In this document: piece by piece, positions 3,316-26,010 of the stretch | How positions within the stretch are numbered: position 1 is the stretch's first letter | Layout: each line of letters begins with the position of its first letter | DNA from: a virus | Virus record (IMG/VR): IMGVR_UViG_3300030382_000156 | Location: 1-27,573 of that record | DNA length: 27,573 bases | Direction: 5' to 3' (one strand) | The notes under the pieces: model-generated | Database searches by the model: none | Told to the model about the DNA's origin: nothing | What the model saw: the letters and a program-made list of their open reading frames with translations, nothing else | Made by a program: the position numbers and the translations under genes

Positions 3316-3328
3316 AGTATATAATAGA
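3316..3328 (-). promoter_or_regulatory. Late-gene leader element TCTATTATATACT, copy A
   Basis: The minus strand reads TCTATTATATACT immediately before the ATG at 3315. The same 13 bases sit in the same place before the starts at 12429 and 14107, and with one change before 25997. Function unknown; candidate phage-specific promoter core or translation enhancer. Confidence 0.6.
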
Positions 3329-3351
3329 TTTAGTTAATTAATATTTGATTT

Positions 3352-4794
3352 TTAAATTGTTGCTCTACGTCTAATCATTGCTAATTTATCTTGATTATTA
3401 GTAATGTCGTCACTCACAACGTAAGCCCTAGCAACGTCTTGTTGTTGTCCACCATTTAAAGTGAACGCCCCTGACATCATTTCAGGTGCAGGTGTTTCAA
3501 CAGCTACCGATCCCCCACCACCCCCACTACCAACATCTGTTTGCATAATCTTTCTAACATTAGCAAGACCTGATGCTACTACTGCTGCTGCTGTAATAAA
3601 GCCAATAGTACCACCCTGTGCAAATGCTTTGTTTGCACCTACATAAGTATCTATAATTGCTTGTGCTACTGCTAATGCTTTATTCTCACCTGCTAATCCA
3701 CTTAATGCACCTGCTAATTGACTATATGCTTCTAATTGTGCGTGTGCATTGTCTATTGTTAATTGTGTTTTGTCTTTATCAAGTTGAATTTGCTCTTGTG
3801 TTAAGCTAATATCAGCCATCTTTTGTTCTGTTCTAAATCCTTCTATTTGTGCTAACACTCCTGCCTTTTCTGCTCTTGCCTGAATTACTGCGATATAATC
3901 TTCATCTTTTTCTGTTAGTTCAAATTGTGATTCTGCTGCTGCCAATATTGCGTCAGCATTTTTTAACATAGCTTTTTCTTGTTCTTCTAGAATTGTTAGA
4001 AGTTTTTTACTAGCTTCCATTCTAGCTTCCATTGTCTTTGTTACATCATCACGAATTTGTCTTTCTTGTTCTGCTTCTCTATCTTTTTGTTCTATTATTT
4101 CTTGATTTAATGCTGCTGCTATTTCTGCCGTTTTCTTTAATTCTACATTTGCCTTTGCAGCGTCATAAGTTGATTTAGTGTAATCTACAATAGCTTCTGT
4201 TGCAGTTTTTACTATCTTAGCAGTTTTATCAACAGTATTATCAACCCCTGTCCAAATATCTACACTTTCTTTACCTGCTTTTTTAACGTCCTCAATAGCA
4301 CCTTTAAAATCTTTTTCAAATAATTTTTTAACTGCACTCGCTAAAAAACCTATTGTATCTAAAAAACTTCTAAATCTTTCTATCAAATTATCTTTAATAG
4401 CAGTACCAAAATCTTTTACGCTTTGAACAGGATCGTCAAATAATTTTGTGAAATATGTTGCAATAACAGAAATATTATTACTTAAAAAACTAAATAAATC
4501 AAGAAACATTCGTGTAAGCATTTCCATTCCTATATTGAAGGTGTCTAAAACTTTTTGGTTTTGACTAAACACTTCCATTAATTTTGCAAGTAAAGCTACA
4601 ACTATTCCAATACCTGCTGCTTTTAATGCCATACCTACGCCTTTTACTGCGTTACCTATTCCTTTAAATCCTTTAGCACCCTTTTTGGTTGCGTCATCTA
4701 GTTTTTCTGTTTCTTTTGCTGCTCTTTCTAGGTCATCAGCTACTTCGCCTACGTTCCCTTTTACATCTACTACTATTTCTGCTTTATCTGCCAT
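3352..4794 (-). CDS. Tail tape measure protein
   Basis: The open frame reaches 4848, but the ATG at 4794 (MADKAEIVVDVKGNVGEVAD) lies 2 bases after the stop of the upstream gene and begins with the usual tape-measure N-terminus, so I use it: 480 residues. Residues about 25-75 are helical with a Gly/Ala-rich hydrophobic stretch (GVGMALKAAGIGIVVALLAK). The middle is long and helical, rich in Lys, Glu and Ala. Near residues 375-430 there is a second hydrophobic segment (AVAQAIIDTYVGANKAF..GFITAAAVVASG), typical of tape measures. In siphoviruses this protein sets tail length; at about 1.5 A per residue, 480 residues predicts a tail near 70 nm. It is unusually far from the chaperone gene. Confidence 0.85.
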   Translation of the reverse strand: MADKAEIVVDVKGNVGEVADDLERAAKETEKLDDATKKGAKGFKGIGNAVKGVGMALKAAGIGIVVALLAKLMEVFSQNQKVLDTFNIGMEMLTRMFLDLFSFLSNNISVIATYFTKLFDDPVQSVKDFGTAIKDNLIERFRSFLDTIGFLASAVKKLFEKDFKGAIEDVKKAGKESVDIWTGVDNTVDKTAKIVKTATEAIVDYTKSTYDAAKANVELKKTAEIAAALNQEIIEQKDREAEQERQIRDDVTKTMEARMEASKKLLTILEEQEKAMLKNADAILAAAESQFELTEKDEDYIAVIQARAEKAGVLAQIEGFRTEQKMADISLTQEQIQLDKDKTQLTIDNAHAQLEAYSQLAGALSGLAGENKALAVAQAIIDTYVGANKAFAQGGTIGFITAAAVVASGLANVRKIMQTDVGSGGGGGSVAVETPAPEMMSGAFTLNGGQQQDVARAYVVSDDITNNQDKLAMIRRRATI

Positions 4795-4796
4795 AA

Positions 4797-5690
4797 TTAA
4801 AATGTTGTTGTTGAAATTACTTCGTGTAATGTTACCGAAGCACTCCATAAGTTATGTACATTATTTCTGTCTTGGACATTAACAGATATTGATTTTAGAT
4901 CACTTGTTGAAGTGTCTGCCATTATACAAGTTCCGTTCTGTCCTATTTTTGCTATATTTCTTGAAAACCCTACCACAAAAGACATTGTATAGCTATTGTC
5001 TATTTTTACTGCACCTCTAATATTCCTATAAGAGTAATTTCCAGCCGTTCCTGAAGAACCACCTAATTCAAGTCGTGTGATGTAAATATCATAACCAATA
5101 ATACTATTATTTTTTACATTAATATAGCTTGATCCATCACCCTGAACAGTTAAATTAGTAGCCGTATTATCTATTGTAACTCCTGAAAGTTCTATTGTTG
5201 ATGTTTGCCTTCTACTACTAAATGTTGCTGCTGCCGTACTGTCTGATAAAGATGTTTTCCCACCTGCAATAGCCACTTCAGATTGTCTAGTTATTTTACC
5301 TAATGAACCACCTAAGATAGATGAATTGTTAAATGTCCTTTCTATTTCGTGTCCGTTCCCTATTATTAAAGTGTTGTTATTAAATCCTTTTGTAATATTA
5401 TTGTCACCTATTATTACTGAATTTTCTGTTGCTATTTCTGTTGTATTTCTTCTCCCTCTTTTTACATTAGTCAAATTATTAAATTCTTCATTTAATGTTG
5501 GACTTACAGTATATGCTCTACACGTACCTGTTGTATTATCAAAGGTATAACCATAAGCATTACAAGTCAATTCATTTACTCTTAAATCTATGTTAGTTCC
5601 GTCTGTGAATATCACCTCACCTGATCCTGACACACTATAAGGTTTTACTGTAAAGTTTTTTATATATCCTGAAGGTCGTTTAGTCGCCAT
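4797..5690 (-). CDS. Putative tail fibre or tail-tip protein with beta-repeat region
   Basis: A 297-residue Ser/Thr/Asn-rich protein with no recognised catalytic motif. Residues about 85-135 contain short repeats (ENSVIIGDNN, NNTLIIGNGHE, NNSSILGGS, EVAIAGGK) like the head repeats of trimeric autotransporter or fibre proteins. Residues about 165-215 (TIELSGVTIDN, NLTVQGDGS, YINVKNNS) suggest beta-helix coils. The C-terminal ~80 residues look like a compact beta domain. Its start overlaps the upstream stop by one base (TAATG), so it is translationally coupled to the 956-residue tail protein, and it is followed by the tape measure. A role in receptor contact or the tail tip is inferred. Confidence 0.6.
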   Translation of the reverse strand: MATKRPSGYIKNFTVKPYSVSGSGEVIFTDGTNIDLRVNELTCNAYGYTFDNTTGTCRAYTVSPTLNEEFNNLTNVKRGRRNTTEIATENSVIIGDNNITKGFNNNTLIIGNGHEIERTFNNSSILGGSLGKITRQSEVAIAGGKTSLSDSTAAATFSSRRQTSTIELSGVTIDNTATNLTVQGDGSSYINVKNNSIIGYDIYITRLELGGSSGTAGNYSYRNIRGAVKIDNSYTMSFVVGFSRNIAKIGQNGTCIMADTSTSDLKSISVNVQDRNNVHNLWSASVTLHEVISTTTF

Positions 5691-8560
5691 TATGGAATAA
5701 GTATAAATTCAACAGTTGATAATTCGTTTGGATTGTAATCAATTCTATTTACCCTAAACACTCTATTTTTAATCATTACCTTATCACTAAATTTAAAGGT
5801 GTTAATATCACTTGCATTTAGATTAACTTTTATAGTCATTATTCTTGTGTTTTTATCATACAATTCGCTAAAATACATTGAATAGAATTTATTATATAGA
5901 TTGTCAGAAGGTGATAATCCTAATGGAGATACTAATTGTTTGCTTTCAAAATTATAATCTATTGTACTATTAGGTACTGTTGGTATTTCTGATAGGTGAC
6001 TAAATTGTAAGAACTTTTCTGCATTCTGACTAGCTTCCCCATTTTGTTCAGGTACATAATAAGTAACGCCTGAACTATTCATATCTACAACTCCATTATT
6101 ATATAAGATTCTAGCTTTATTATTAAATCCTGAATGTTCAGTACCATCTTTATTAGAACTATAAACTTGAGGAACTACAAAATCAGTAAATTGTGAGAAC
6201 AAAGGTCTAGATAATGTAGCTGAAAATGGTGACGCTATTATTTCTTCTTTCCCCACTAAGTTACCTGTCTGACTAGCACTTACTAATAAGTTTTCTGCAT
6301 CTATTTCTTTTGCACCATATTCATAATTCAATTTGTTTTTATAGACACTAAGACAATAATCTTCTTCATCTTCTTCATATTTTAAAATAATATCCTTAGA
6401 TAGTTCTAAAGGTTTTAAATCAATATCATCAATGTCAATCTTGTGTGTCCAATCGTGTTGAATGTTTCTATCTAATAAAGTCGTTCCATTTGGATTATCA
6501 ATAAAGACATCTTCATATGGTTCAATTAATATATTGTTAGGGTTCTCAGGTTGTGGAATAGTAATTAAATTGAACATAGTCAATATTCCTTTTAAAAAGT
6601 CCCATTGATTGGTTTGTCCTCTTTCATTTTGTGATATTGCCCCTGTAGTCATCACTCCCCCTGAAACGATACCTGATATTTGAGCGTGTGTTGAAACAGA
6701 TTCTTTACCTTCATAAATAGTATTAGTATGTCCTGATGTACAAGTAAATCTACAATACAAAGTATCTCCAGCATTTAAAGTCGCACTTATTGAACCTGCG
6801 TAAGTAGTGGTATCTCCTGGAGCTAATCCTGTAAATGTTTGTGTTTGTATTGGTCCTAACGGTACTGCCGTTCCTGTTGTGTACCATTCTATTTTATAAC
6901 CTGCTGATGAAACTCCTGATCCTGTCCAATTAAAGCAATCAATATCATAAGAAATACTGTAAACTGCACCATCAACTATACTTGTGAACACCCCTGTTGT
7001 ATTATCATATCCTGAGAAATCACCAAAATCAGAAACGTCAAATTGTAGTGTTGTCCAAGTTGGTGAGGGTAATGCCACTACACTTGTTCCTGAATATGTG
7101 TACCAATTATAAGTTGCTCCACCACTATTGTAAGGATTTACCTGATCTTGCCCCCAATTAAAATCCACAAATAATTTCTTGAATCTATCTGTTTCAAAAA
7201 ATGTAGAAGTGTATTCATATCCTGCATCAAAGAACATTCTGTCTATTAAATATTTAGCTTGTATAAAAGGTCTAAAAGCGTCTTGTAATGTTGTTAGTTC
7301 AGGATAATCTAAATTAGAATTATTACCTGTTGAACCATTAGACAAAGGGATATTACCTGTCCAATTTACAAATGGATATTTTAAGACGTTAGTATGATCT
7401 GTAGGACTTGATATGGTTCCTGTTGTATCGTAAGCAAAGCTAGTATTGTCAATAGTATTAGTTAATGGTAGTCCTGTTGAATCATACCAACTATCTCTAA
7501 TGACGTCTATATTGTAGTCGTGTTCTAATTCTGTAAAATCCATTTCTGCTATTACCCTCCCTTTTAACACATCTGCTAAGGCGACTGCTTCAGAATACAA
7601 ATTTACATTATAACTTATTTCACCTTCTTTATCTATAATATTTATAAGACGTAATGAACCTTCAAAAATTAAAATCCCATCTTGTTTTAATACTGCTCTT
7701 GTTTTAGCGTATGGATTAAAGTCGTAAGAAGTTTTAATGGTTTTAGTAATATCAAATATATGTGTGAATATTTTATTATTCCTTTTAGTTGCAGGAAGAT
7801 TAAAGTCTTTAGAGTAGCTTTGCACCTTCTCAGCTACATTTTTAAAATCATCAATACTTAAAGTAAGTGGTATGTTTTCTTCTTCATATTGGTCACATAT
7901 TACTTGTCCATCATTAAAGTCAGTATAATTAACTGTTGCACCTGAAGCAGCTTCTCTAACTCTAATGCTATGTACTTGATGGCTTGTTGTTCCTGCTGCT
8001 TCTTTACCTGAGAAACTTATGATTAAAGGCATTGTTGAGAATCCTGCTTGAAAATTATAAGTAGAAATATTAGCAGGTCCTCCCATAATTTGAAACGGAA
8101 CAATTCCTCCATTATTTCCTATTGCATCTGTTTCACCCCAAGCTCCCAATATATACATTCCATCAGACAATGTAACTCCCGTGTGTTCTATTATCAAATC
8201 ATACCAATTACCTACTATAAGATTTGGTATTGGTTGTGCTACACCACAAATAGAATAGAAAGGTGGTCCTGCACCACCCCCTGCACCTGTAAGTGTTAAA
8301 TTTCCACCACTTATTGTAGGTGCTGCCGTTGCATTCCAAGTTGCACCTGCCGTACCTGAATAATATCCGAACCACGCACCCACATAAAAATTCGCAGGAT
8401 TGTTTATTCCTGTTCCGTATGGGGATTGATCAATATTCAAAACATTTGAAAATGATGAAGATGAAAAATAACTATTAGCAGCATAGTCATTATAAGTTAA
8501 AAAGGTATTATAAGAATAGCCTGAATATGATTGAGGATATAATATTAATTGGACACTCAT
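5690..8560 (-). CDS. Large tail protein (hub/tip-like) with N-terminal lectin-like region
   Basis: At 956 residues this is the largest product in the window. The N-terminal ~215 residues are Gly/Ser/Tyr/aromatic-rich and look like a jelly-roll carbohydrate-binding domain. A domain starting near residue 225 (IPLTLSIDDFKNVAEKVQSY, then SKDFNLPATKRNNKIFTHIF) is a pattern I associate with Bacteroidota phage tail proteins. A second beta-rich insert lies near residues 500-640. The C-terminus (IMTIKVNLNASDINTFKFSD, then KVMIKNRVFRVNRIDYNPNE) looks like a beta-rich hub domain. Its start overlaps the upstream stop by one base (TAATG). Size, order and coupling suggest a distal tail/hub protein that contacts the cell surface. 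The exact role is inferred. Confidence 0.65.
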   Translation of the reverse strand: MSVQLILYPQSYSGYSYNTFLTYNDYAANSYFSSSSFSNVLNIDQSPYGTGINNPANFYVGAWFGYYSGTAGATWNATAAPTISGGNLTLTGAGGGAGPPFYSICGVAQPIPNLIVGNWYDLIIEHTGVTLSDGMYILGAWGETDAIGNNGGIVPFQIMGGPANISTYNFQAGFSTMPLIISFSGKEAAGTTSHQVHSIRVREAASGATVNYTDFNDGQVICDQYEEENIPLTLSIDDFKNVAEKVQSYSKDFNLPATKRNNKIFTHIFDITKTIKTSYDFNPYAKTRAVLKQDGILIFEGSLRLINIIDKEGEISYNVNLYSEAVALADVLKGRVIAEMDFTELEHDYNIDVIRDSWYDSTGLPLTNTIDNTSFAYDTTGTISSPTDHTNVLKYPFVNWTGNIPLSNGSTGNNSNLDYPELTTLQDAFRPFIQAKYLIDRMFFDAGYEYTSTFFETDRFKKLFVDFNWGQDQVNPYNSGGATYNWYTYSGTSVVALPSPTWTTLQFDVSDFGDFSGYDNTTGVFTSIVDGAVYSISYDIDCFNWTGSGVSSAGYKIEWYTTGTAVPLGPIQTQTFTGLAPGDTTTYAGSISATLNAGDTLYCRFTCTSGHTNTIYEGKESVSTHAQISGIVSGGVMTTGAISQNERGQTNQWDFLKGILTMFNLITIPQPENPNNILIEPYEDVFIDNPNGTTLLDRNIQHDWTHKIDIDDIDLKPLELSKDIILKYEEDEEDYCLSVYKNKLNYEYGAKEIDAENLLVSASQTGNLVGKEEIIASPFSATLSRPLFSQFTDFVVPQVYSSNKDGTEHSGFNNKARILYNNGVVDMNSSGVTYYVPEQNGEASQNAEKFLQFSHLSEIPTVPNSTIDYNFESKQLVSPLGLSPSDNLYNKFYSMYFSELYDKNTRIMTIKVNLNASDINTFKFSDKVMIKNRVFRVNRIDYNPNELSTVEFILIP

Positions 8561-11664: not shown

Positions 11665-12429
11665 TTATGTTTACTTTTGTTGTACTTTCTAAATCTGTTT
11701 CATAACTTAACCAAGTAAATGCTTCCATCAAATTGAGTTTTGTTATTGTTTCTAATTTACTTATATCCCCATTTGTCAATCTATACATTATGCCGAAGTA
11801 GCCCCACTTTGTTGCGAAATCTTCTCCTGCAACGTTTTCCTTATCTGCTCTGTCCGTTCCGTCAAATATAATGGCAAAATCTTCAACAATTCGCTTCCGA
11901 AACTCCAAAAAAAAACCAATGCACTTTGCACTTCTTCAGCTTTCATCTTCTTAAACTCTTCAGCCCTTATTGCTATATTCCCATCATACGCTTCAATAAC
12001 ATACTTCTTATTCTTCTTTTCAACTATTGGTCTATAAAGAACAGAAAGTACTTCTGGCATATTATTCTCTATTCCTAACTTAATAAAGGTTTCAATGTCT
12101 GCCCATTCACCAAGCGTTATATCTTCCAAACTAGGATGAAAACCATACTCTTTACCTTCTACTGTTATGATGTTTCTTAATCTTCCGTCTGCCTTACTTT
12201 GCAGTTCTGAAATCTTATCCATTATTATTGCTACATCTTTTATTCCTAACTCCTTTACTAATTGTTTAGGTATATTAGATAAAGCCGTAATAGTTTCTAA
12301 CGCTTCTTCACTCCTGCTTCCCTTATGTAAATCTACTAACTTAACCCACTTTTCAAGTGTGACATCTGACCAGCTTTTGATTAAGTTAAATTCTTTAGTG
12401 TTTCCTTCTTTCTTGATTTTAACTTTCAT
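11651..12429 (-). CDS. Tail assembly chaperone, -1 frameshift fusion (GT-like)
   Basis: A 259-residue fusion made by a -1 shift at 11908..11914. The first 174 residues come from the frame starting at 12429. After ...SALVFF the ribosome slips and continues LEFRKRIVEDFAIIFDG to the stop at 11651. The 85-residue extension has no ATG of its own upstream of its conserved-looking part: its frame simply opens at TTG inside the slippery region. It ends with KWGYFGIMYRLTNGDISKLE and TKLNLMEAFTWLSYETD, a pattern like the T part of tail-chaperone GT fusions. In lambda and many siphoviruses a small fraction of the chaperone is made this way and recruits tail tube protein onto the tape measure. The 14-base overlap with the next gene supports expression as a fusion. 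Its distance from the tape measure is unusual. Confidence 0.8.
11788..12429 (-). CDS. Tail assembly chaperone, unshifted product (G-like)
   Basis: The zero-frame product has 213 residues: MKVKIKKEGNTKEFNLIKSW, VTLEKWVKLVDLHKG, then YGFHPSLEDITLGEWADIET and a second half with IVEKKNKKYVIEAYDG. The LxxITLGEWADIE signature near residue 100 is typical of chaperones of Bacteroidota phages. After the slip codons it continues WSFGSELLKILPLYLTERTE to TSA. It shares 120 bases with the -1 extension, so that stretch is coded in two frames. It lies right after TerL and its ATG is preceded by TCTATTATATACT. Confidence 0.8.
   Translation of the reverse strand: MKVKIKKEGNTKEFNLIKSWSDVTLEKWVKLVDLHKGSRSEEALETITALSNIPKQLVKELGIKDVAIIMDKISELQSKADGRLRNIITVEGKEYGFHPSLEDITLGEWADIETFIKLGIENNMPEVLSVLYRPIVEKKNKKYVIEAYDGNIAIRAEEFKKMKAEEVQSALVFFWSFGSELLKILPLYLTERTEQIRKTLQEKISQQSGATSA
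11908..11914 (-). other. Slippery heptamer T TTT TTT for -1 frameshifting
   Basis: On the coding strand the zero frame reads GTT TTT TTT TGG (11916..11905) within a run of nine T. The heptamer T TTT TTT is in the X XXY YYZ phase needed for tandem -1 slippage, after which reading continues TTG GAG TTT CGG. Downstream lies a possible small hairpin (TTCG GAAG CGAA). Because the run is nine T long, transcriptional slippage is an alternative mechanism. Confidence 0.8.
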
Positions 12430-12442
12430 AGTATATAATAGA
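12430..12442 (-). promoter_or_regulatory. Late-gene leader element TCTATTATATACT, copy B
   Basis: Identical to the copy at 3316..3328 and directly adjacent to the chaperone ATG at 12429, within the 30-base gap after TerL. Upstream of it the minus strand reads AAATATCAACTTTT, unlike the other copies apart from A/T richness, so only this core is conserved. Confidence 0.6.
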
Positions 12443-12459
12443 AAAAGTTGATATTTAGT

Positions 12460-13770
12460 TTACTGCACAAAATACTTTCCGTAGTTACTGTCAATCTCAT
12501 AATACATACGCATAGCTAAAGCGTCTGCATAATCAGGTGACCTGCCTATAATTGCTTTAATAGTGTCTTTTGAAAGTATCTGTAATTTATTGTCTTTGTC
12601 TGCGTCTTTAGTTCTTACCTGTTCTAGTTCTTCTATAATATCGTTCTTAGTATTTATGTTATTACACGATATTCCTAATTGACCTTCATTAATCTTTTTA
12701 GCTAAAGTATAAAAGCATTGTGTTTTAAGGTTCTGATAGTTTTCACTCTTTAATGCTCTTGCATTATTTACAAATCCCTGACATCTTAAATAGTCTTTCA
12801 CACCACCCCCAACACCATCTTCGTCCACAATTATATTCCTTAAAGGTACTTGGTTTTCTTGTTGTAGTTTTTTGATTTCATCTACTACTTCGTTTATTCC
12901 TGATTTCAATATTGTCTTTACATAATGTAAGTGTAATCCATTCCAAAGCATTATTACTGTTCTGTCACTACCAAAACGTGCAACATCACAAGTGATATAC
13001 TTAGCCCCTTCAATACCTTTGCTATCAAATAAACTGATGATTGAATTGTAATCTATTAAACTATCTTGTGTTGCGTCATATTCCCAATTTCCAAATAATA
13101 ACCTTTGTTTAGTTAATTCGTCTAATTCAGATAACTGCTTTTCATAGTGTTTAGATATATAAGTATTGTCACCTACTAAAGATTGGATAAACTTTCTGTA
13201 AGGTTTTAATTTGCCTTCTTGTGCAGGTCTGTAATATTGTGAGTACACCCAATTCTTACTTGGATTGCACGTTAATAATAGCTTAGGGATTAAATCATTT
13301 TCATCTAACTTATAACGCAATCTACTTGCTACTATATTCTTTGCCTTTTCTGTTATTTGATTTGCTTCATCAATAAATGCTGCCGTAATTTCAAGCGAAC
13401 CTAAGCTATCAAAGTTCCTATCACTTGGATATAAGAATAAATCCTTTAGTATTATTTCTGAACCATTATAGAAAGTGATTACGTTTGTTGAACCATTAAA
13501 GTTGTAATGTTGGTCTGCTTTCACACCCCAAGCACTACACACTTCAAAAAAAGTATTTAAGGTTGTTTTCTTTAAAGCGTCTAATTTTGACCTACCCATT
13601 AAATATCTTGTCTTAGGATATTGCATACACATTGAGATAAGAAAACTTACACCTACCCAAGATTTACCCCCACCTGCTGCACCCCCAAATAATACTTCTT
13701 TAGTTTGTTTATCAAACAAGTATTTTAAACATTCTTTTTGTGTCTTTGTAAATTCAGGACTAATCTCCAA
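12460..13770 (-). CDS. terL: Terminase large subunit
   Basis: A 436-residue DNA-packaging ATPase/nuclease. Walker A is GGAAGGGKS at residues 29-37. Walker B is AAFIDEAN near residues 128-136, with the catalytic Glu after the Asp. The SNP-like LLLTCNPSKNW motif near 165 is the coupling motif of phage terminases. The C-terminal nuclease has acidic residues in TCDVARFGSDRT (~240), IIVDEDGVGGG (~315) and SPDYADALAM (~420), the RNase H-like metal sites. Length is normal for the family. It starts within the last 11 bases of the small-subunit gene, so the pair is coupled. It packages the genome through the portal encoded at 22408..24267. This is the most secure call in the window. Confidence 0.97.
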   Translation of the reverse strand: MEISPEFTKTQKECLKYLFDKQTKEVLFGGAAGGGKSWVGVSFLISMCMQYPKTRYLMGRSKLDALKKTTLNTFFEVCSAWGVKADQHYNFNGSTNVITFYNGSEIILKDLFLYPSDRNFDSLGSLEITAAFIDEANQITEKAKNIVASRLRYKLDENDLIPKLLLTCNPSKNWVYSQYYRPAQEGKLKPYRKFIQSLVGDNTYISKHYEKQLSELDELTKQRLLFGNWEYDATQDSLIDYNSIISLFDSKGIEGAKYITCDVARFGSDRTVIMLWNGLHLHYVKTILKSGINEVVDEIKKLQQENQVPLRNIIVDEDGVGGGVKDYLRCQGFVNNARALKSENYQNLKTQCFYTLAKKINEGQLGISCNNINTKNDIIEELEQVRTKDADKDNKLQILSKDTIKAIIGRSPDYADALAMRMYYEIDSNYGKYFVQ

Positions 13771-14107
13771 GATTTATGTTTATTTTAATTGGTTCTTCAC
13801 CACTTGTAATATCTAAGCTATCACCATATCCACGTTTCTTCCCTCTTGTTTTTAAATAGAAGATTGTAGCAGGTGTACTTCCTTTTTCTATTTGTTCTTT
13901 TAAATGCGTTTCTGCAAAGTCAATAAACATACCATCTATTTCTTTTACTGCTTTACGATATTCTTCATCTTCTTTGTACCACTTGTAATGTTGTGTTCTA
14001 CTTAGCCCTGCTTTTTCACACGCTTCTGTTACTATTCCTAAAGATTTCTGTAATGCTTTTAAGAGTAGTGTTTTATTGTCTTGTGTTCGTTCTGTTCGTT
14101 TGTCCAT
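13760..14107 (-). CDS. terS: Terminase small subunit
   Basis: A 115-residue protein immediately upstream of TerL, overlapping it by 11 bases. Residues about 15-50 form a helix-turn-helix (ALQKSLGIVTEACEKAGLSR, TQHYKWYKEDEEY), followed by IEKGSTPATIFYLKTRGKKR, a segment typical of small terminase subunits of this class. The last residues (EEPIKININLGD) are a short beta tail. It should recognise phage DNA and load TerL. Its ATG is preceded by the TCTATTATATACT element, only 3 bases after the stop of the preceding gene, so it probably starts the late set. Confidence 0.85.
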   Translation of the reverse strand: MDKRTERTQDNKTLLLKALQKSLGIVTEACEKAGLSRTQHYKWYKEDEEYRKAVKEIDGMFIDFAETHLKEQIEKGSTPATIFYLKTRGKKRGYGDSLDITSGEEPIKININLGD

Positions 14108-14120
14108 AGTATATAATAGA
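14108..14120 (-). promoter_or_regulatory. Late-gene leader element TCTATTATATACT, copy C
   Basis: Identical 13-base copy, directly adjacent to the TerS ATG at 14107. The whole gap after the upstream stop is only 15 bases, so if the element is a promoter its upstream part lies inside the coding sequence of the gene at 14123..14365. Confidence 0.6.
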
Positions 14121-14122
14121 AA

Positions 14123-14365
14123 TTACTTGTATTCATTTGGTGCAGGTAAATGTAGTCCAAGTTCAACTGCTGCCCAAGCCCTTATTTCTTCGCAGTATTG
14201 ATTGAACTCTTGCTTATCTAATTCTTTAGTTGTTTTTATTATAAATCTTTCTTTCAATATTTCGTGCATTTCAAATTTATGGTAACCTGTAAATTCCCCT
14301 ATTGGTTGTACTATACATTTCCAATAGTATTTATTTTGTCTTTCGCTTCTAATCAAATGGTTCAT
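14123..14365 (-). CDS. Conserved small phage protein, possibly NinB-like
   Basis: The frame can be extended to a GTG at 14383, but the ATG at 14365 is preceded by GAGGAATCA, a rare Shine-Dalgarno-like sequence here, so I choose it: 80 residues. It starts MNHLIRSERQNKYYWKCIVQ and ends with TTKELDKQEFNQYCEEIRAW and ELGLHLPAPNEYK. That C-terminal pattern (TK-L--xEF--Y---IR-WA--ELG--LP-PNE) is one I associate with phage proteins next to replication/recombination genes and resembles the end of NinB-type proteins. It overlaps the upstream gene by 17 bases. It probably closes the early/middle operon. The function is not certain. Confidence 0.6.
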   Translation of the reverse strand: MNHLIRSERQNKYYWKCIVQPIGEFTGYHKFEMHEILKERFIIKTTKELDKQEFNQYCEEIRAWAAVELGLHLPAPNEYK

Positions 14366-14989: not shown

Positions 14990-15388
14990 TTATTTATATT
15001 TATTATACACATTTCTTATTCCATCTAAACAACTACTTAGGCAACTACTGCAACTTGTTCCTCTATCATAATTTGATCCACTAATTGTGTTCCATAATTC
15101 TATCATCTTTTTCTTTGCTTCGTGATTTTTTGCTCTGCCTGTTCGTATGTCAGGATATACTGCTAACACTTCTTCTACTATTTCTTTGGGCAGTTGTTCA
15201 GGTATTTCTATTTCTTTAGTTTTAGCCCATTTATTGATTGGACATTCCATTGGTGCGATTCTTGACTTGACTTTTACGAAGCAACCACATTTTAGGCAAT
15301 TTCCTGTTAGCTTAAAGTAATGGGTACACTCCTTACAGATAGCAATTCTATCTTCATAGACCTCTTGACTTGTAAAAAATCTATTCAT
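14990..15388 (-). CDS. Cys-rich zinc-binding protein
   Basis: A 132-residue protein. Residues about 18-49 carry CKEC...CLKCGC...MECPINKW, a treble-clef or ribbon arrangement with at least five cysteines. A second cluster lies near the end (TSCSSCLSSCLDG). Between them is a helical region with LPKEIVEEVLAVYPDIRTGR. This layout occurs next to sigma-like and replication genes in Bacteroidota phages, but I know no function. It overlaps the sigma-like gene by 8 bases, so both are probably made together. It could bind RNA polymerase or DNA. Confidence 0.55.
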   Translation of the reverse strand: MNRFFTSQEVYEDRIAICKECTHYFKLTGNCLKCGCFVKVKSRIAPMECPINKWAKTKEIEIPEQLPKEIVEEVLAVYPDIRTGRAKNHEAKKKMIELWNTISGSNYDRGTSCSSCLSSCLDGIRNVYNKYK

Positions 15389-15941
15389 CTATTAATTCTT
15401 TTTTAAGTATCTCTCGTACTTTATCTATCGTTGTGAATAAGCTATTGCGACTAATCTTGGTTTTTTTAGCAAGTGAATCTAAGGTGTTCCCGTCGTGGTA
15501 GTAATACAACTCGAATATCTTTTTGTCGTACCAATATAATTTAGCCAATTCTCTATCTATCTTTTCTAACTTGATAAGATTCCCTTTGTCTACTTTTGTT
15601 TCAGGTAAATTCTCTAGATTTTTCTTTATTTCTTTGTGGTCTTGTGTGGTATTAGAACCATATAAACTGCTTATTCTGGTGTAGTATTTTTTGTACTTAT
15701 AATAGAATGGACTTCGTGTGCTTGTTAATGCACGTCTTAATACTACTGCACCATAGCGTATGATTCCATCTTCACCATCTTTTTCATAAATAGTTTTTAA
15801 ACTATCGGGATTCATTTGTAAAAAATATAAGTAAAGTTCCTGAACTGCGTCATCTATTTCATTTTCATTAGTTGTAATTCCAAAACACATTTGTTTAAAT
15901 TTGCTTCTAAGATCTGCTATTTTAGAATAAATCTTATTCAT
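15381..15941 (-). CDS. Sigma-70-like transcription factor
   Basis: The ATG at 15941 overlaps the upstream stop by 8 bases and is preferred to the open frame reaching 15971; this gives 186 residues. Residues about 30-45 (NEIDDAVQELYLYFLQMNPD) resemble the region 2 helix of small sigma factors (DDAVQE-x-FL). Residues about 140-180 (FELYYYHDGNTLDSLAKKTK, ISRNSLFTTIDKVREILKK) form a region 4-type helix-turn-helix. The length fits ECF-type or phage-specific sigma factors. Placed last but a few in the early/middle operon, it is a good candidate to switch on late genes. The repeated TCTATTATATACT element before late genes would be a natural target, but that link is my inference. It could also be an HTH regulator without sigma activity. 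Confidence 0.6.
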   Translation of the reverse strand: MNKIYSKIADLRSKFKQMCFGITTNENEIDDAVQELYLYFLQMNPDSLKTIYEKDGEDGIIRYGAVVLRRALTSTRSPFYYKYKKYYTRISSLYGSNTTQDHKEIKKNLENLPETKVDKGNLIKLEKIDRELAKLYWYDKKIFELYYYHDGNTLDSLAKKTKISRNSLFTTIDKVREILKKELIDE

Positions 15942-19795: not shown

Positions 19796-20000
19796 AGTAT
19801 TGTTTTTTAATTTCAACAAATAAATTACGAACATCATCAAAACTACATAGATTTAACCATTCTTCTCTTTTCTTTGTATTATGCAACTTGTAAACTACTG
19901 CAAACATATTGCTGGTACATTTATTTAAAAATAATGGGTTTTCGGTCATCACATCTAATATAGATATAATAGCTTCTTCTTTATTAGTTGCTTCTTTCAT
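19782..20000 (-). CDS. First early gene, small unknown protein
   Basis: 72 residues from the ATG at 20000 (MKEATNKEEAIISILDVMTE). The frame can be extended to a TTG at 20048, but that would overlap the -7 box of the promoter at 20046..20053, so I reject it. The protein is helical with a central KCTSNMFAVVYKLHNTKKRE segment. No recognised family. It is the promoter-proximal gene of the early operon, with a predicted leader of about 40 bases. Confidence 0.5.
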   Translation of the reverse strand: MKEATNKEEAIISILDVMTENPLFLNKCTSNMFAVVYKLHNTKKREEWLNLCSFDDVRNLFVEIKKQYYEQS

Positions 20001-20045
20001 TTTATAATTTGTTTCCAATTTCTTTTGGTATTGATTAATAATGCA

Positions 20046-20076
20046 CAAAGATATAAAATAAATTGATTATTCACAA
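20046..20076 (-). promoter_or_regulatory. Early promoter, TTG-N20-TAnnTTTG
   Basis: The minus strand has TTG (20076..20074), a 20-base spacer and TATCTTTG (20053..20046), matching the -33/-7 consensus of Bacteroidota primary sigma factor promoters. Transcription should start near 20040, giving a leader of about 40 bases to the ATG at 20000. It would serve the early operon. Confidence 0.7.
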
Positions 20077-20092
20077 CTTCATTCACGAAGTT
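20075..20092. promoter_or_regulatory. Palindrome AACTTC-N6-GAAGTT, candidate operator
   Basis: Perfect 6-base arms (AACTTC and GAAGTT) flank ATTCAC. The left arm overlaps the TTG of the early promoter, the position expected of a repressor operator. The half-site extended as AACTTCGTG recurs at 18161..18169 in the gap before the replication protein gene. Which protein binds is unknown; no phage repressor gene is visible. Confidence 0.45.
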
Positions 20093-20205
20093 ATTAACAA
20101 TTAGTATGTTAATTACTATTGATTCTATAAGCGTTTTAAAGTGCTATCTAGTATCTTACCCTTCAGGAGTTGTAGAAGTGCCTTAGAGGTCTAAAGGGGG
20201 GGGTG

Positions 20206-20943: not shown

Positions 20944-21094
20944 CTACAAGAGTTAAACAAGCGTAAAACAAGTTAGAAGCAGTTGCTTCATCAACTCCTA
21001 AATACGTTACCAGTAATGGTATCACAATAGAACTTACTGCATACCAGAACTTCTTAGATTTAATCATTTGTCCAATCAAAAAATTTTTAAACAT
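20912..21094 (-). CDS. Holin-like membrane protein
   Basis: A 60-residue protein starting MFKNFLIGQMIKSKKFWYAV. There are hydrophobic helices at residues about 16-33 (WYAVSSIVIPLLVTYLGV) and 40-56 (SNLFYACLTLVVGQGIA), a basic N-terminus and a short loop. Such two-span proteins next to an endolysin are usually holins. It lies 33 bases downstream of the M15 peptidase gene, in a leader AAAATAAAAAACT also seen before the MCP. A second small membrane protein (21598..21762) sits on the other side of the peptidase, so either could be the holin and the other an antiholin or spanin-like partner. Confidence 0.6.
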   Translation of the reverse strand: MFKNFLIGQMIKSKKFWYAVSSIVIPLLVTYLGVDEATASNLFYACLTLVVGQGIADSAK

Positions 21095-21127
21095 AGTTTT
21101 TTATTTTAAGTTAATATTCAAAGTTAG

Positions 21128-21490
21128 TTATTTGTAAAGCCAAATTACGTCTTGGTCTTTTGAGTTATCAAGATCACAATGTATAAAACTCTTACCGATT
21201 CCTAAACGATTAATACCTACACTCATTAAAGCGTTAAGTATTATATATCTTTCACGACTTCCGTTATAAGCGATGTCACAAGCTAGTCCAAAACAATGGC
21301 TGCTATGAGATTTTCCCTTAACACGCAAATTCCACGCTTTCGTTCTATATCCACTATTTATTTTAAAGGGAATCCCTGCATTGTGTCTGGCATAGTCAAG
21401 TTTCTCTAAGAACTTACTATCCATTTTATTTCCTGATCCCACCTCATCAGGTGAATCAAATTCAGAAAGATTGAAGTATTTTAAGTCCAA
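21128..21490 (-). CDS. M15-family peptidase endolysin (TTG start)
   Basis: I place the start at a TTG (21490), 1 base after the stop of the small gene 21492..21620; it gives MDLKYFNLSEFDSPDEVGSG, the usual N-terminus of phage M15_3 peptidases. The open frame extends to an ATG at 21565, but that would add 25 atypical residues and overlap the small gene by 74 bases. The 120-residue product has the SxHxxGxAxD zinc motif: SSHCFGLACD with His65 and Asp72, and the third ligand His104 in FIHCD. INSGYRTKAWN is the substrate-side loop. Family members cut peptide bonds in peptidoglycan stem peptides. It probably works with the adjacent holin-like proteins to lyse the host. It has no signal peptide. Confidence 0.85.
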   Translation of the reverse strand: MDLKYFNLSEFDSPDEVGSGNKMDSKFLEKLDYARHNAGIPFKINSGYRTKAWNLRVKGKSHSSHCFGLACDIAYNGSRERYIILNALMSVGINRLGIGKSFIHCDLDNSKDQDVIWLYK

Positions 21491-21491
21491 A

Positions 21492-21620
21492 TTATAAGTA
21501 GTAAACTTTATAAACTTTAACGCCCCTAACTTCACGCACAAACTCCCTGCGAAATTTACGAGCATTCTTATCTTCTTTCTGATACTTGGGATTGTTACTA
21601 TTGAGCTTTCTCTTTTTCAT
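21492..21620 (-). CDS. Small 42-residue basic protein in lysis cassette
   Basis: Begins MKKRKLNSNNPKYQKEDKNA and continues RKFRREFVREVRGVKVYKVY before a stop that lies 1 base before the peptidase TTG. Very basic, no hydrophobic segment. It overlaps the 54-residue membrane protein gene by 23 bases. The tight packing on both sides supports a real gene. Its function is unknown. Confidence 0.5.
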   Translation of the reverse strand: MKKRKLNSNNPKYQKEDKNARKFRREFVREVRGVKVYKVYYL

Positions 21621-21762
21621 ATTTTACAAATTTATAGATACTAAAACCTATCGCTAAACCTAAAGAGATAAATGTTAATAATTCATTCACTTGACTTAAC
21701 GATATGCCTATTGCAGTTCCGTTAGCTAGTCCTACCTGTAATGTGTCTTGTATTTCTTTCAT
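21598..21762 (-). CDS. Small 54-residue one-span membrane protein
   Basis: Starts MKEIQDTLQVGLANGTAIGI and ends with VKYEKEKAQ. A hydrophobic helix covers residues about 27-45 (ELLTFISLGLAIGFSIYKF), followed by a basic tail; the N-terminal part is amphipathic. This topology fits a class III-like holin or a holin accessory protein. It lies two genes before the endolysin and overlaps its downstream neighbour by 23 bases. It is one of two membrane proteins around the peptidase. Confidence 0.6.
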   Translation of the reverse strand: MKEIQDTLQVGLANGTAIGISLSQVNELLTFISLGLAIGFSIYKFVKYEKEKAQ

Positions 21763-21844
21763 TTGTATTATTATTTGACTTACCTTTTAAGTAAGATTTT
21801 AATTTAGTTTTATTTGTTTCTTTAATTTTATATCTTCTCTTCAT
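21722..21844 (-). CDS. Candidate 40-residue basic peptide gene
   Basis: The ATG at 21844 lies 1 base after the stop of the connector gene. The frame reads MKRRYKIKETNKTKLKSYLK and ends NERNTRHITGRTS at 21722. It overlaps the 54-residue membrane gene by 41 bases. Without it, the 83-base stretch 21763..21845 would be empty in an otherwise closely packed genome. Strongly basic, no recognised domain. The position of the start is the main support, and the large overlap weakens it. Confidence 0.4.
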   Translation of the reverse strand: MKRRYKIKETNKTKLKSYLKGKSNNNTNERNTRHITGRTS

Positions 21845-21845
21845 C

Positions 21846-22406
21846 TTATATGTCAGGAGTTAAGAAGTTTCTTAATGTTAATTCAGGACCTTGCCTGTTT
21901 GGTCTTTCAAGATTCATATTTGAATAATAAGCATTTCTATCAGGAGAAATATCTGCACCTGTGTTCGTGCTATATTCAGGAAAGCTAGATAGATTATTTG
22001 TGATATACTCTATCATTCTTTCCGTAAAATATTCTGCATTGTTCCTCACCTCTTCCCTTAAATGCTGAGCTTCTTCTGTGCTTAAAGCGACTCCTGTTTC
22101 TGACGTCTTGGAATAAATATTACCGTTCTCCACACGAAATCTAAGGTAAGGTATGCACATATGGAACGCCCACGAAGGAAGCATATCCCCAATATATTCA
22201 TCTACTAAAGTTTTATAAGCACCTGCTAAAGTTCCTGCCGTTATTTCTGCTTCTAATTTTTTATATAAATCTGTACCAAGTCTAGGTTCGCAATGAATCC
22301 GTTGTGCTTTTAAAATATAGGGGAGGATAATATCGACATCAACATTCATATTGATTGCCGTTGAATCCTTTAGTTTTTCTTCTGATATAAATAATACGTA
22401 TGCCAT
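21846..22406 (-). CDS. Head-tail connector (adaptor) protein
   Basis: A 186-residue protein. The N-terminal part follows the pattern of gp6-like connectors in Bacteroidota phages: MAYVLFISEEKLKDSTAINM, then VDVDIILPYILKAQRIHCEP and RLGTDLYKKLEAEI near residue 45. The next ~70 residues are helical with DMLPSWAFHMCIPYLRFRVE. The C-terminus (GPELTLRNFLTPDI) is a flexible arm. It starts 1 base after the portal stop, the usual order portal-then-connector. It should sit under the portal and bind the neck. Confidence 0.65.
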   Translation of the reverse strand: MAYVLFISEEKLKDSTAINMNVDVDIILPYILKAQRIHCEPRLGTDLYKKLEAEITAGTLAGAYKTLVDEYIGDMLPSWAFHMCIPYLRFRVENGNIYSKTSETGVALSTEEAQHLREEVRNNAEYFTERMIEYITNNLSSFPEYSTNTGADISPDRNAYYSNMNLERPNRQGPELTLRNFLTPDI

Positions 22407-22407
22407 T

Positions 22408-24267
22408 TTATCTAGGTTTTAAATATCCGTTATTCTTCATTGTTCTTGGTGCTTCTGCTACTTTCTTGTCATTTGGTTCAGGATAAAATCCCTGACTTCT
22501 TGCTTTAGCCGTAGATATTAACTTACCATACGCAGTTATATCCTTTTCTTTCCAAGCGTCCTCTAATTCCATTACATAGACCTTCCTGATGAACCGATGA
22601 AAACATTGTGGACCTCCTTTATAGAGCCAAATTGAATAAAAATTAGTGCCATTAGGTCCAAATCCTTTATTTACTGCTTTCTTGTCTAAAGCAATTAAAT
22701 CTTCTTTACGATATAACTTATTAGCACCCATCATCTTTCTACAAAATTCTCTTTTTGTTCCTGACTTATTTACTAAACGACTATCTCTATCATATTTATA
22801 TCTCACTTTAAAAAACTTACTCACCTTATTACTCCATCCATCTTGTTCAGATTTGCCATCTCTATCATCTTTAGGTACTGTTGCAAATTCTACTTTGTGT
22901 AATTCGTTTAATTCTTTTTCAAAATCAAAATCTTCATCTTCATCATCTACTATTTCTTCATCTAATAATTTATATCCTGTTGGTTCTTCTTCACCACATT
23001 CATCTATAAATAAATCTAATTCTTTTTTATCACTTGAGAAATCTTCACGCACTTCTATTTCTTCGTTTAATGGTGGCAATCCTAATTCTTCCCTTATTTC
23101 ATCTTGTTCCATAACGCCCTTCAAATCTTCACTTGTAAATTCTAAAGTAATTGGTTTAAGTTGAACAAAGCTAATTGGCATATCCATATTGTTTACTCTA
23201 AATAACCTTCTAAGAACTTTAATAATTTTTTGCTGATATGGTTTACAGACGGTGTTTAAAAAATAATTTGCTGAGCTATTTAATTCATCAACATTTGAAC
23301 CAAGACCTGTATCGTTCTTAATTCCCATAAGCATAGGAGAAGTAACTCTATGTGCCGTCAAAATGTTCTGCACAAGCAATTCCTGAAGTGCTAAATATTG
23401 TTTATCTAAATCTGAAGGACTTATTGGTGTTATTTCAGGTGTTCTTGTTTTATCATCTGAGAATGTGAGAATAAATTTACCTGCGTTTTCACTTCCGGTG
23501 AACTTTTGAGCAATACTTTGTTCTACTTGGAATCTCTCCTCTTGCGTAGGAACGCCATTTGCGAACGCAAATACGTATGAACCACTAAACCCATTAGTGA
23601 TATTATTTAAGTGGAACTCCGACACTTTTTGGTCTATTAAACTCCAATTATTTCCTGCTAAGTAATCAGGTGTGTAATAAGCGTTCATATTAGGACTATA
23701 CAGACCTGTATAAAGTATCTGACTAGGACTTGTTCTGTCGTTAGGATTAAATGCAGGTACTCTATAAGGTTTATTCATTCTAGTATTTGACCAATCACCT
23801 GAAACGTAATATCCTCTAACCTTACCCATTTCATCAGGTCGTTCTACTCTAATCTTCTCAACAGGGATATGATAGATTTCAGCTATTCCTTGCGACCTGT
23901 CCCTAGCCCAAACTATGTTAAGAGCGAAACTTCCTTGTAGCTTAAAGTCAAATGCTACTTTTTTCACTACTTCGTGCAAACTTTCATTACTATTAGCGTC
24001 AGCCATAAACTGCTTCAACTTAACTATTGCGTCTAAGTTTCTTTCATCTTCATCATCAATTACTAAATCTTCTCCTGCAATTAGTTCGCTTGTCGCATTT
24101 ATAATAGCTGCGTTGGTGCTAGAGTTATAATACAAATCAATAAGAAACTGTGGAAAGAGGTTCTTCCAATTTTGTGTACCATATTCAATGAAATCTTTGC
24201 CCCTAACTTCTTGTACTTGTGGTGCAGTTTCTGTTCCTAAATTAACACTTAATATTTGTTCTTTCAT
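22408..24267 (-). CDS. Portal protein with C-terminal extra domain
   Basis: A 619-residue protein. The first ~400 residues are portal-like: an N-terminal WKNLFPQFLIDLYYNSSTNA segment, LQGSFALNIVWARDRSQGIA and EIYHIPVEKIRVERPDEMGK near residues 110-150, LIDQKVSEFHLNNITNGFSG near 215, and a helical LLVQNILTAHRVTSPMLMGI near 300 followed by the wing/clip region. It is coupled to both neighbours. After an acidic linker (about 415-460) comes a distinct basic domain (about 470-619): SKFFKVRYKYDRDSRLVNKS, GFGPNGTNFYSIWLYKGGPQ, CFHRFIRKVYVMEL, ending TMKNNGYLKPR. I recognise this tail domain as recurring in Bacteroidota phage head proteins but do not know its job. Ordinary portals of this class end near residue 420-450. 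Confidence 0.8.
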   Translation of the reverse strand: MKEQILSVNLGTETAPQVQEVRGKDFIEYGTQNWKNLFPQFLIDLYYNSSTNAAIINATSELIAGEDLVIDDEDERNLDAIVKLKQFMADANSNESLHEVVKKVAFDFKLQGSFALNIVWARDRSQGIAEIYHIPVEKIRVERPDEMGKVRGYYVSGDWSNTRMNKPYRVPAFNPNDRTSPSQILYTGLYSPNMNAYYTPDYLAGNNWSLIDQKVSEFHLNNITNGFSGSYVFAFANGVPTQEERFQVEQSIAQKFTGSENAGKFILTFSDDKTRTPEITPISPSDLDKQYLALQELLVQNILTAHRVTSPMLMGIKNDTGLGSNVDELNSSANYFLNTVCKPYQQKIIKVLRRLFRVNNMDMPISFVQLKPITLEFTSEDLKGVMEQDEIREELGLPPLNEEIEVREDFSSDKKELDLFIDECGEEEPTGYKLLDEEIVDDEDEDFDFEKELNELHKVEFATVPKDDRDGKSEQDGWSNKVSKFFKVRYKYDRDSRLVNKSGTKREFCRKMMGANKLYRKEDLIALDKKAVNKGFGPNGTNFYSIWLYKGGPQCFHRFIRKVYVMELEDAWKEKDITAYGKLISTAKARSQGFYPEPNDKKVAEAPRTMKNNGYLKPR

Positions 24268-24269
24268 AA

Positions 24270-24488
24270 TTAATCTTGTTCAGCCCAACTAGGACTATTT
24301 AATATTTCCATAATTGCTTCATAATTATAGGTTGTTTTACCCTCTAAGAAGCTAGGTGTTTCACCTTTAAATTTAAGAAGTGCTTGGTTATTATCCAAAG
24401 AATATCTTAATGTATGTTCTGAAGTTTCTAACACTTGTGAAAAGTTTACACTCGACACTTCTTCTGCTAATATTAATACATATTTCAT
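24270..24488 (-). CDS. Small unknown protein before the portal
   Basis: A 72-residue protein (MKYVLILAEEVSSVNFSQVL ... LNSPSWAEQD), mixed alpha/beta. It lies between the LamG protein and the portal with 2-3 base gaps, so it belongs to the head operon. No recognised family. A small virion or assembly factor is possible. I cannot say more. Confidence 0.5.
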   Translation of the reverse strand: MKYVLILAEEVSSVNFSQVLETSEHTLRYSLDNNQALLKFKGETPSFLEGKTTYNYEAIMEILNSPSWAEQD

Positions 24489-24491
24489 ATC

Positions 24492-25205
24492 TTATCCTGT
24501 TTTATATGGTACGTCAGTAGACCACGTTGGTGAATTAACTAACTCTCCTGCATTTCCTTTTCCTGAACTATCACCTGCCGTAGCACCACTACCTTCTTCA
24601 AATTTCCAATAACCAACAAGTCCTGTTGATCCTGTTAAATTTATTGGTTCTCTTTTCGCTATCCATAACTCTCCAATAGGAACTACTCTTGTAAATACTG
24701 CCACTTCAGTTATATTACCATTAAAGAATCCTGCGTCTTGTGTGCTTTGTGCAACAGAAGCTAATCCAATAGAACCTGCCCAAGTTCCAAGACCTGTCAC
24801 AGTATCTTTTAAAGTGCCATCTAAATATAGTTTTAATTCATCTGCTGATGTGTCCCAAGTAGCTACAATATTATGCCATTTGCCGTCATTCTCAATAGCG
24901 TCAGTAAACGAAGCTACTTTTGCCGATCCCCCTGCTTTATATGTTGCCCTTCCTTCATTTGAAAATGCGTGATAAAATATGTTGATTAGGTTATTAGCAT
25001 CTACTCTCATATGAAACATATGTCCTGAAGCACTTGTTGTATTTATTTTTACCCACAAAGATACAGTACCTGCGTCTACATTTACATCACCACCAACATC
25101 ATCAACATTAACACTTTCATCACTACCATTAAAGGCAAGTGAATACGTGTTTACAGACGTTTTCCCGAGTCCTGAAATACTATTACCTAATTTTAGTGCT
25201 AACAT
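24492..25205 (-). CDS. LamG/ConA-like jelly-roll protein
   Basis: A 237-residue protein with a concanavalin A-like (LamG) fold: TYSLAFNGSDESVNVDDVGG near residues 20-40, VSLWVKINTT near 48, GKWHNIVATWDTSADELKLY and LDGTLKDTVTG near 110-138, FNGNITEVAVFTRVV near 160, and GLVGYWKFEEGSGATAGDSS near 195. Such domains bind glycans or act as adhesion modules. The gene sits in the head block between small virion proteins and the portal. It may be a capsid decoration that binds polysaccharide, or a misplaced tail adhesion protein. A surface location on the virion is inferred. Confidence 0.7.
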   Translation of the reverse strand: MLALKLGNSISGLGKTSVNTYSLAFNGSDESVNVDDVGGDVNVDAGTVSLWVKINTTSASGHMFHMRVDANNLINIFYHAFSNEGRATYKAGGSAKVASFTDAIENDGKWHNIVATWDTSADELKLYLDGTLKDTVTGLGTWAGSIGLASVAQSTQDAGFFNGNITEVAVFTRVVPIGELWIAKREPINLTGSTGLVGYWKFEEGSGATAGDSSGKGNAGELVNSPTWSTDVPYKTG

Positions 25206-25208
25206 ATC

Positions 25209-25484
25209 TTATGTGGTTACTCCTTCGTGATAACCTATTCCAATTCCTGAAGTCAAAGTAATTGCCGTCACATTCATAAATAATGTTGTTCCTGCTGGTA
25301 AGGTCGTTACTAAAGCTGATTCACCTGTTGCGTCTGCAACTGTGATCGCTGAAACTACTGATGTCACAGGAAAGTAAACTGCATACCAATCTTTACTTGT
25401 CTGTGCTACCGTTGTAAATATTTCTGTATCTCCATTTTTACCTAATTGTTCTACTAAGAGTTGTTGTACGTTTTCTATCGCCAT
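25209..25484 (-). CDS. Small head decoration-like protein
   Basis: A 91-residue protein. The C-terminal half (SAITVADATGESALVTTLPA, GTTLFMNVTAITLTSGIGIG, then YHEG) is a small beta-barrel with the LPAGT-x-x-x-x-VTAITLTSG pattern seen in small virion proteins of Bacteroidota phages. An N-terminal helix (MAIENVQQLLVEQLGKN) may insert into another subunit. It is in the head block between two structural genes. A decoration or neck component is the likely role. Confidence 0.55.
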   Translation of the reverse strand: MAIENVQQLLVEQLGKNGDTEIFTTVAQTSKDWYAVYFPVTSVVSAITVADATGESALVTTLPAGTTLFMNVTAITLTSGIGIGYHEGVTT

Positions 25485-25496
25485 AATTTTTTATTT

Positions 25497-25997
25497 TTAT
25501 TGTCCGTAATATATATAATTTGTTCCTGCTGGTTCAGGATGTTGATTGTATTGTACTTGTTCTTCGCCACTTGGTTCAGCCATATATAGCTTCCCTTGCC
25601 CTACTAATCCCTTAACAACTCCATTTGCATTTGCAACAGGTAATACAGTAGTTTCAGTAGCAGGTGCAGTAAGTGTTGTTAAAGTTAATGTACCAATCCA
25701 ACTAACTTCATAAATTTCGTAATACCAATATCCATTAGGTATAAAATTCACTTCAGAAGTTAAATAGTTTTCATTTGCCGTACTACTGTGAACAAAAGTC
25801 ATAGTAGTATATCTATCATAAATTCCTAATTTTGTAGGATAAGCATAAACAACCCTCTTGTCCATATCGTTAGTGAACTTAACTAGATACTGAATATGTG
25901 CAGTAGTAACTGAAGTATCAATACGCCTATCTTCTGTTGAAACTTTCCAAGTGTATTCACCTCCTGTTGCTAATGCTTTATATATTCCCTGAAACAT
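25497..25997 (-). CDS. Putative head/tail structural protein
   Basis: A 166-residue beta-rich protein. Residues about 84-106 (VNFIPNGYWYYEIYEVSWIG) and the end (GKLYMAEPSGEEQVQYNQHP, GTNYIYYGQ) follow a pattern I associate with structural proteins of Bacteroidota phages. It begins a unit after a terminator, with the TCTATTATATAAT element directly before its ATG, so it probably has its own promoter. No enzymatic motif. Its exact place in the virion is unknown. Confidence 0.6.
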   Translation of the reverse strand: MFQGIYKALATGGEYTWKVSTEDRRIDTSVTTAHIQYLVKFTNDMDKRVVYAYPTKLGIYDRYTTMTFVHSSTANENYLTSEVNFIPNGYWYYEIYEVSWIGTLTLTTLTAPATETTVLPVANANGVVKGLVGQGKLYMAEPSGEEQVQYNQHPEPAGTNYIYYGQ

Positions 25998-26010
25998 ATT
26001 ATATAATAGA
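25998..26010 (-). promoter_or_regulatory. Late-gene leader element TCTATTATATAAT, copy D
   Basis: One-base variant (C to A near the 3' end) of the 13-base element, directly adjacent to the ATG at 25997. It lies within the 47-base stretch after the terminator at 26045..26065, where a promoter is expected. No TAnnTTTG box is present in that stretch, so a phage-specific promoter is plausible. Confidence 0.6.

Follow-up and report, generated by a model that had tools for sequence, protein, structure and literature searches.

Putative bipartite late promoters and a predicted sigma factor in a family of small marine phages

The virus record IMGVR_UViG_3300030382_000156 of IMG/VR was analysed over its full length of 27,573 bp (hereafter the window). 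It represents a tailed phage, and its recognised genes (portal, protease, terminase subunits and capsid among them) are all on one strand. A 13-base element stands directly before the ATG of four late genes, and a fifth copy lies farther from its gene. Comparative analysis indicates that the element is almost certainly a DNA promoter. The whole account, in which the five sites are bipartite late promoters dependent on a phage sigma factor and leaderless in four of the five cases, is considered well founded on the sequence data and might be accepted with good confidence. It is based on sequence conservation, geometry, placement and the fold predicted for the sigma factor; the pairing of sigma and promoters, the transcription start (+1), the timing and the leaderless translation are inferred from these.

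Each 13-mer would be the -10 part of a promoter composed of a CAAATAAA-like block (about -32 to -25), a spacer of 11-12 nucleotides (nt), the core TCTATTATATA (-13 to -3) and N-Y-R, with R as +1. A two-domain sigma factor similar to the extracytoplasmic function (ECF) class, encoded before terS, would bind the host core RNA polymerase and direct it to the five promoters. These would drive the late operons terS-terL, gene B with the tail block, gene C-protease, gene E-capsid and gene D-portal. Four of the late mRNAs would begin at the A of the ATG and be translated without a leader, and the fifth would have a short A-rich leader. For the early genes, the host primary sigma would act at a TAnnTTTG promoter.

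The late element and its upstream block in the window

Exactly four copies of TCTATTATATAMTATG occur in the window (3328-3313, 12442-12427, 14120-14105 and 26010-25995), each on the minus strand, and no match was found in 100 dinucleotide shuffles. All four copies end at an ATG, and the late-gene motif could be written as TCTATTATATA(A/C)T. The 13-base element first described before four late genes is thus confirmed. The -10-like element TCTATTATATA is located at 26000..26010 for gene D (25497-25997), at 14110..14120 for terS (the terminase small subunit and first gene of the late operon; 13760..14107, phrog_4044), at 12432..12442 for gene B (11788-12429), which follows the terminase large subunit gene terL (12460..13770, phrog_2), and at 3318..3328 for gene C (2602-3315), which precedes the head protease gene. 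All of these genes and elements are on the minus strand. The proposed +1 is the A of the ATG at 25997, 14107, 12429 and 3315, respectively.

The fifth copy is TCTATTATATT at 1263-1253 (minus strand), with 15 bases between it and the ATG of gene E (548-1237, minus strand), which precedes the major capsid gene. The preliminary description had reported a degenerate copy before position 1237; this proved to be a true site that is conserved in relatives, but it does not abut the ATG. It may be the same type of promoter with an ordinary short A-rich leader (proposed +1 at the A of position 1250, 13-nt leader). The late element therefore has five sites in the window, all ahead of late genes, and the early region contains none. 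A search allowing three mismatches gave 79 matches compared with 68 in shuffles, without clear excess; thus the evidence rests on the exact copies and on the relatives, not on loose copies.

A second, -35-like block (CAAATAAA, CAAATGAA, TAAACTAA or CAAATATT) was found upstream of all five copies, with a spacer of 11-12 bases. On the minus strand, it is CAAATAAA at 26022..26029 for gene D (11-nt spacer), CAAATGAA at 14132..14139 for terS (inside the preceding gene), TAAACTAA at 12455..12462 for gene B (12-nt spacer, overlapping the terL stop), CAAATATT at 3340..3347 for gene C, and CAAATAAA at 1275..1282 for gene E. The earlier view that the flanks are unconserved apart from A/T richness was therefore wrong. 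With at most one mismatch, the combined two-block pattern matched exactly these five sites of the window; the mean in shuffles was 0.58, and no shuffle contained five.

The TAnnTTTG box, which serves the Bacteroidetes primary sigma as its -7 element (PMC6847099), is absent at all five late sites, and a host primary-sigma promoter was therefore ruled out there. By contrast, a host-type -7 box (TATCTTTG) is present at the head of the early region (20046..20053, minus strand). Such boxes stand at the early-region head, after the phosphoesterase gene, in the window and most comparable relatives, with G009 as an exception. They are often paired about 40 bp apart (TAACTTTG and TATCTTTG), for example in the relatives G001, G005-G007, G010, G012 and G015. 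A scan for sigma70-type promoters gave as many matches as in shuffles and was uninformative.

The terminator described before gene D was confirmed as a terminator-like hairpin upstream of the promoter (26045..26065, minus strand; stem 26065-26045), and the stretch between terminator and gene indeed has no TAnnTTTG box. This position is relevant to another possibility, that the element is an RNA processing or cleavage site which makes 5' ends at the start codons of one long late transcript. Ends at the ATG would be equally expected in that case, and the sites lie between late genes that are probably cotranscribed, as judged from gene order. However, a terminator stands ahead of the gene D site, the second block lies upstream at a promoter-like phase of 11-12 nt, and the folds around the five sites are no better than shuffles (z from -0.4 to 1.9). 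RNA processing is accordingly regarded as highly improbable.

Some other features of the window were also observed. Terminator-like hairpins (26732-26751 and 26045-26065) lie on either side of the gene at 26103-26705, and this gene lacks its own late promoter. A protein with a LamG/concanavalin-like lectin domain is encoded at 24492-25205 beside the portal gene, and is a possible adhesion or decoration protein. The major capsid gene occurs at both ends of the window (3-411 and 27165-27573), and this 409-bp overlap is 89% identical; the map is therefore probably a circle that is close to complete. The window is probably either a circular map imperfectly joined from the sequences of two strains or a sequence with a duplicated capsid fragment.

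Conservation and geometry in related phages

A TerL scan of IMG/VR revealed 332 relatives, of which 80 were kept as loci; the core TCTATTATATA occurs 162 times in these loci. The pattern TTCTATTATATA was present in 17 of the 20 larger related records and was mainly oriented along the gene strand; its reversed form gave no match. The motif stands ahead of the matching genes (D, terS, B, C and E) in the window and ten near-complete relatives. In the near-complete relatives, gene D comes after the capsid gene and one further gene, and the terS copy may precede a gene inserted just before terS. Among named phages, Flavobacterium phage 11b (53%) and Cellulophaga phi10:1 (51%) have the TerL nearest to that of the window. 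The motif is absent in that form from the nearest named phages 11b, phi10:1 and P12002L. An IMG/VR-wide scan found no motif outside this phage family, except chance matches without the upstream block.

The consensus of the upstream block is CAAATAAA, with AAAY in nearly all cases; it starts at -18 relative to TCTAT in five site classes and at -19 in gene B. The AAAY block was found in the TerL-selected loci and then tested out-of-sample on 120 loci fetched by the motif alone. In this held-out set, AAAY was located at -18/-19 in 111 of the 112 sites in family loci versus 0 of the 16 chance matches in unrelated contigs (Fisher P 1.8e-19, a nominal value, since the sites are related).

The distance from the core to the ATG is variable among orthologues: 2 nt for terS, 2 or 4 for gene B, 2 or 15 for gene C, 2, 5 or 15 for gene D, and 15-30 for gene E. 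Over the overall range of 2-31 nt, the motif remains intact and its internal spacing fixed, and the phase of the upstream block to TCTAT is unchanged where the ATG moves. A variable distance to the ATG with a fixed internal geometry is the behaviour of a promoter, and not of a translation or RNA-processing signal.

The same data bear on a translation initiation enhancer, either Kozak-like or an A/U-rich site for S1 binding, placed before strongly translated late genes. Such a role might be suggested by the four of five window genes in which the motif abuts the ATG, and the A at -3 matches the preference of Flavobacterium (PMC6847099). A Kozak-like signal of Bacteroidetes would have a fixed position relative to the AUG with A at -3 and -6; here the distance is 2-31 nt, and -6 is an invariant T instead of the favoured A. 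In the orthologues of genes E, C and D, the motif is also intact at 12-31 nt from the ATG. The upstream block keeps step with the motif and not with the ATG. The enhancer alternative thus fails on spacing and has hardly any likelihood. The leaders of gene E are A-rich, which is typical of translation starts in Bacteroidetes.

The bases behind the core also point to the start of transcription. Among the 20 sites with a distant ATG, 19 have A and one has G as the third base after TCTATTATATA; this base is a purine in 40 of the 44 sites with a gap of 3-5 nt, and coincides with the A of the ATG at sites with a 2-nt gap. At the four window sites, the A of the ATG occupies this purine position, 14 bases into the element. 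A fixed purine at constant distance, mostly after a pyrimidine, resembles a transcription start; a start at this position would leave four genes of the window (terS, B, C and D) without a leader. On this conservation, it seems reasonably likely that the late mRNAs of these four genes are leaderless, with +1 at the AUG or within about 2 bases of it. The earlier proposal of a -10-like box with nearly leaderless transcripts is supported by the comparative evidence, in the refined form of a bipartite element with five sites, one of which has a leader.

Another gene was noticed in this region of the relatives. In many of them (for example L221 (G009), L210 (G003) and L012:8800-9447), a gene starting MKQQVKIxxVKGNPxNPRIIKNDKFKKLVKSI is inserted just before terS and has captured the terS late promoter. 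The product appears ParB-like by eye; the L012 copy has no Pfam match.

A predicted phage sigma factor and its proposed promoters

The sigma-like factor of the preliminary description was supported by its predicted sigma2-sigma4 fold. The gene (15381..15941, minus strand) encodes 186 amino acids, with sigma2 at residues 1-81 and sigma4 at residues 117-186, and its product is the proposed recogniser of the five promoters. The AlphaFold (AF2) model has a mean predicted local distance difference test score (pLDDT) of 77, low in the linker 91-118. The top 50 structures from Foldseek with VIA-align were sigma factors or their complexes throughout. Residues 1-81 were superposed on sigma2 of SigR with a root mean square deviation (rmsd) of 2.2 over 70 residues, and residues 117-186 on sigma4 of sigmaE (rmsd 2.8 over 69) and of SigD (rmsd 1.9 over 62). 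The 186-residue model contains sigma2 and sigma4 and has neither sigma1.1 nor sigma3, as in the ECF (group 4) factors. The sigma2 and sigma4 domains, which read the -10 and -35 elements, fit a two-block promoter.

Conservation of the sigma protein across the family is seen in 46 non-redundant sequences, and every near-complete relative examined carries its gene. Pfam Sigma70_r4 profiles match up to 19 of the 46 members at E<=0.01, with no r2 match listed, and PHROG sigma factor profiles match 30 of the 46. A PDB sequence search with the sigma profile gave no significant match, and tblastn gave none in named phages. In species genomes, the protein was found only on two contigs (L235 and L236) of metagenome-assembled genomes called Pseudooceanicola and Euryarchaeota, which are probably stray phage contigs binned wrongly. 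Loci were also fetched by a divergent sigma (L095) alone; the bipartite promoter was present in 66 of these 79 loci, and the other 13 hold little beyond the sigma gene. This co-occurrence argues with fair assurance for the phage sigma as the factor that reads the five late promoters.

Alternatively, the late promoter might be read by the host holoenzyme or a modified form of it, and the phage sigma-like protein would serve other promoters. The pairing of sigma and promoter comes from co-occurrence only, and Bacteroidetes hosts have several ECF sigmas (PMC9723704). Nevertheless, the motif is unlike the primary Bacteroidetes consensus TTTG/TAnnTTTG (PMC6847099), the motif with its upstream block is confined to this phage family in the IMG/VR-wide scan, and every near-complete relative examined has the sigma gene. 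A host holoenzyme therefore appears an unlikely reader, although a less remote one than the translation and processing alternatives.

Several points weigh against the reading of the element as a phage-sigma promoter with leaderless transcripts. Because the sites share descent, they are less independent than their counts and nominal P values imply. The terS -35-like block falls within codons of the preceding gene. The fifth base after the core is also A in 20 of the 20 leadered sites, and +1 could sit 2 nt further down. The core tolerates change, as shown by the dialect TCTATATAT/TCTATAATATA in the phages G001, G003 and G004. The window sigma protein itself has no Pfam match, its Foldseek E-values are modest (best 2.7e-3), and its linker is poorly modelled. 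Moreover, the Bacteroidetes host is likely but indirectly assigned.

A possible lead to the recognition of the dialect was also observed. The sigma factors of the dialect phages L126, L130 and L133 (TCTATAATATA/TCTATATATAA) are unusual at residues 16-21, whereas all 41 other sequences compared have M18 and an aromatic residue at 20. Residues 16-21 may thus change together with the promoter dialect, which is only a lead, as the dialect phages are close relatives and the pattern is confounded by descent.

Relation to known systems and significance

The nearest parallel is Salmonella phage 7-11, in which the late sigma gp47 uses bipartite late promoters (GTAAtg-(16)-aCTA), transcription starts 6-9 bp past the -10 element, and the early genes use the host sigma (PMC8948821). 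The window system would work like that of phage 7-11, a likeness of layout and not of homology to gp47. A divergent phage sigma, few bipartite late promoters heading late operons, host sigma for early genes, a start 6-9 bp past the -10 element, and CTA within the -10 part would be common to both. The window differs in its sequences (CAAATAAA and TCTATTATATA), A/T-rich flanks, likely Bacteroidetes host, and a predicted +1 at the ATG that would leave the mRNA leaderless. In phiEco32, the sigma gp36 uses the single-element middle/late promoters tAATGTAtA (PMC8948821). A phage sigma and an A/T-rich -10-like box before late genes are shared; the window promoters have two elements instead of one, and the window sigma has a sigma4 domain. 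As in systems of the 7-11 and phiEco32 type, the window encodes a sigma-fold protein and has a conserved element ahead of late operons and not of early genes.

The late promoters of T4 gp55 (TATAAATA) have no -35 element and need the sliding clamp. An A/T-rich -10-like box ahead of late operons and the use of host core with a phage sigma would be common to both; the -35-like block conserved at fixed spacing separates the window from the T4 type. The promoters of the phiKZ non-virion RNA polymerase are TATG with G as +1 (PMC5312081). They are likewise short late elements able to include the start codon, but phiKZ uses its own multisubunit polymerase, and none was recognised in the window. In bacterial leaderless genes, TANNNT stands some 10-12 nt upstream of the start codon and is read by the primary sigma, mainly in Actinobacteria and Deinococcus-Thermus (PMC3160421). 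Their -10 box is likewise placed to make the start codon the 5' end, whereas the window element is phage-specific.

Among phages of Proteobacteria and Firmicutes, a few are known to encode a sigma factor with defined late promoters. The literature search found none for Bacteroidetes phages, and no direct precedent for leaderless late transcription in them. The window would provide a complete predicted late regulon of five promoters and one sigma, with the start position to the base. This uncultured family spans hundreds of marine contigs, and the sigma is present in no named relative.

Bacteroidetes ribosomes do not rely on Shine-Dalgarno signals. In F. psychrophilum, 5.5% of mRNAs are leaderless (PMC9723704); about 13% in F. 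johnsoniae have a leader no longer than 10 nt (PMC6847099), and 3.7% in B. thetaiotaomicron have one shorter than 10 nt (PMC7366714). Leaderless mRNAs are thus rare in the likely hosts, and a phage in which leaderless mRNAs make up four of five late transcripts would directly test how translation starts in Bacteroidetes. It may be tentatively suggested, at somewhat less than even chance, that widespread small marine Bacteroidetes phages run their entire late programme via a private sigma-promoter pair and mainly leaderless mRNAs. If so, late translation would bypass the leader-dependent initiation rules of the host, and phage mRNA might be favoured if ribosomes or initiation factors are altered in late infection.

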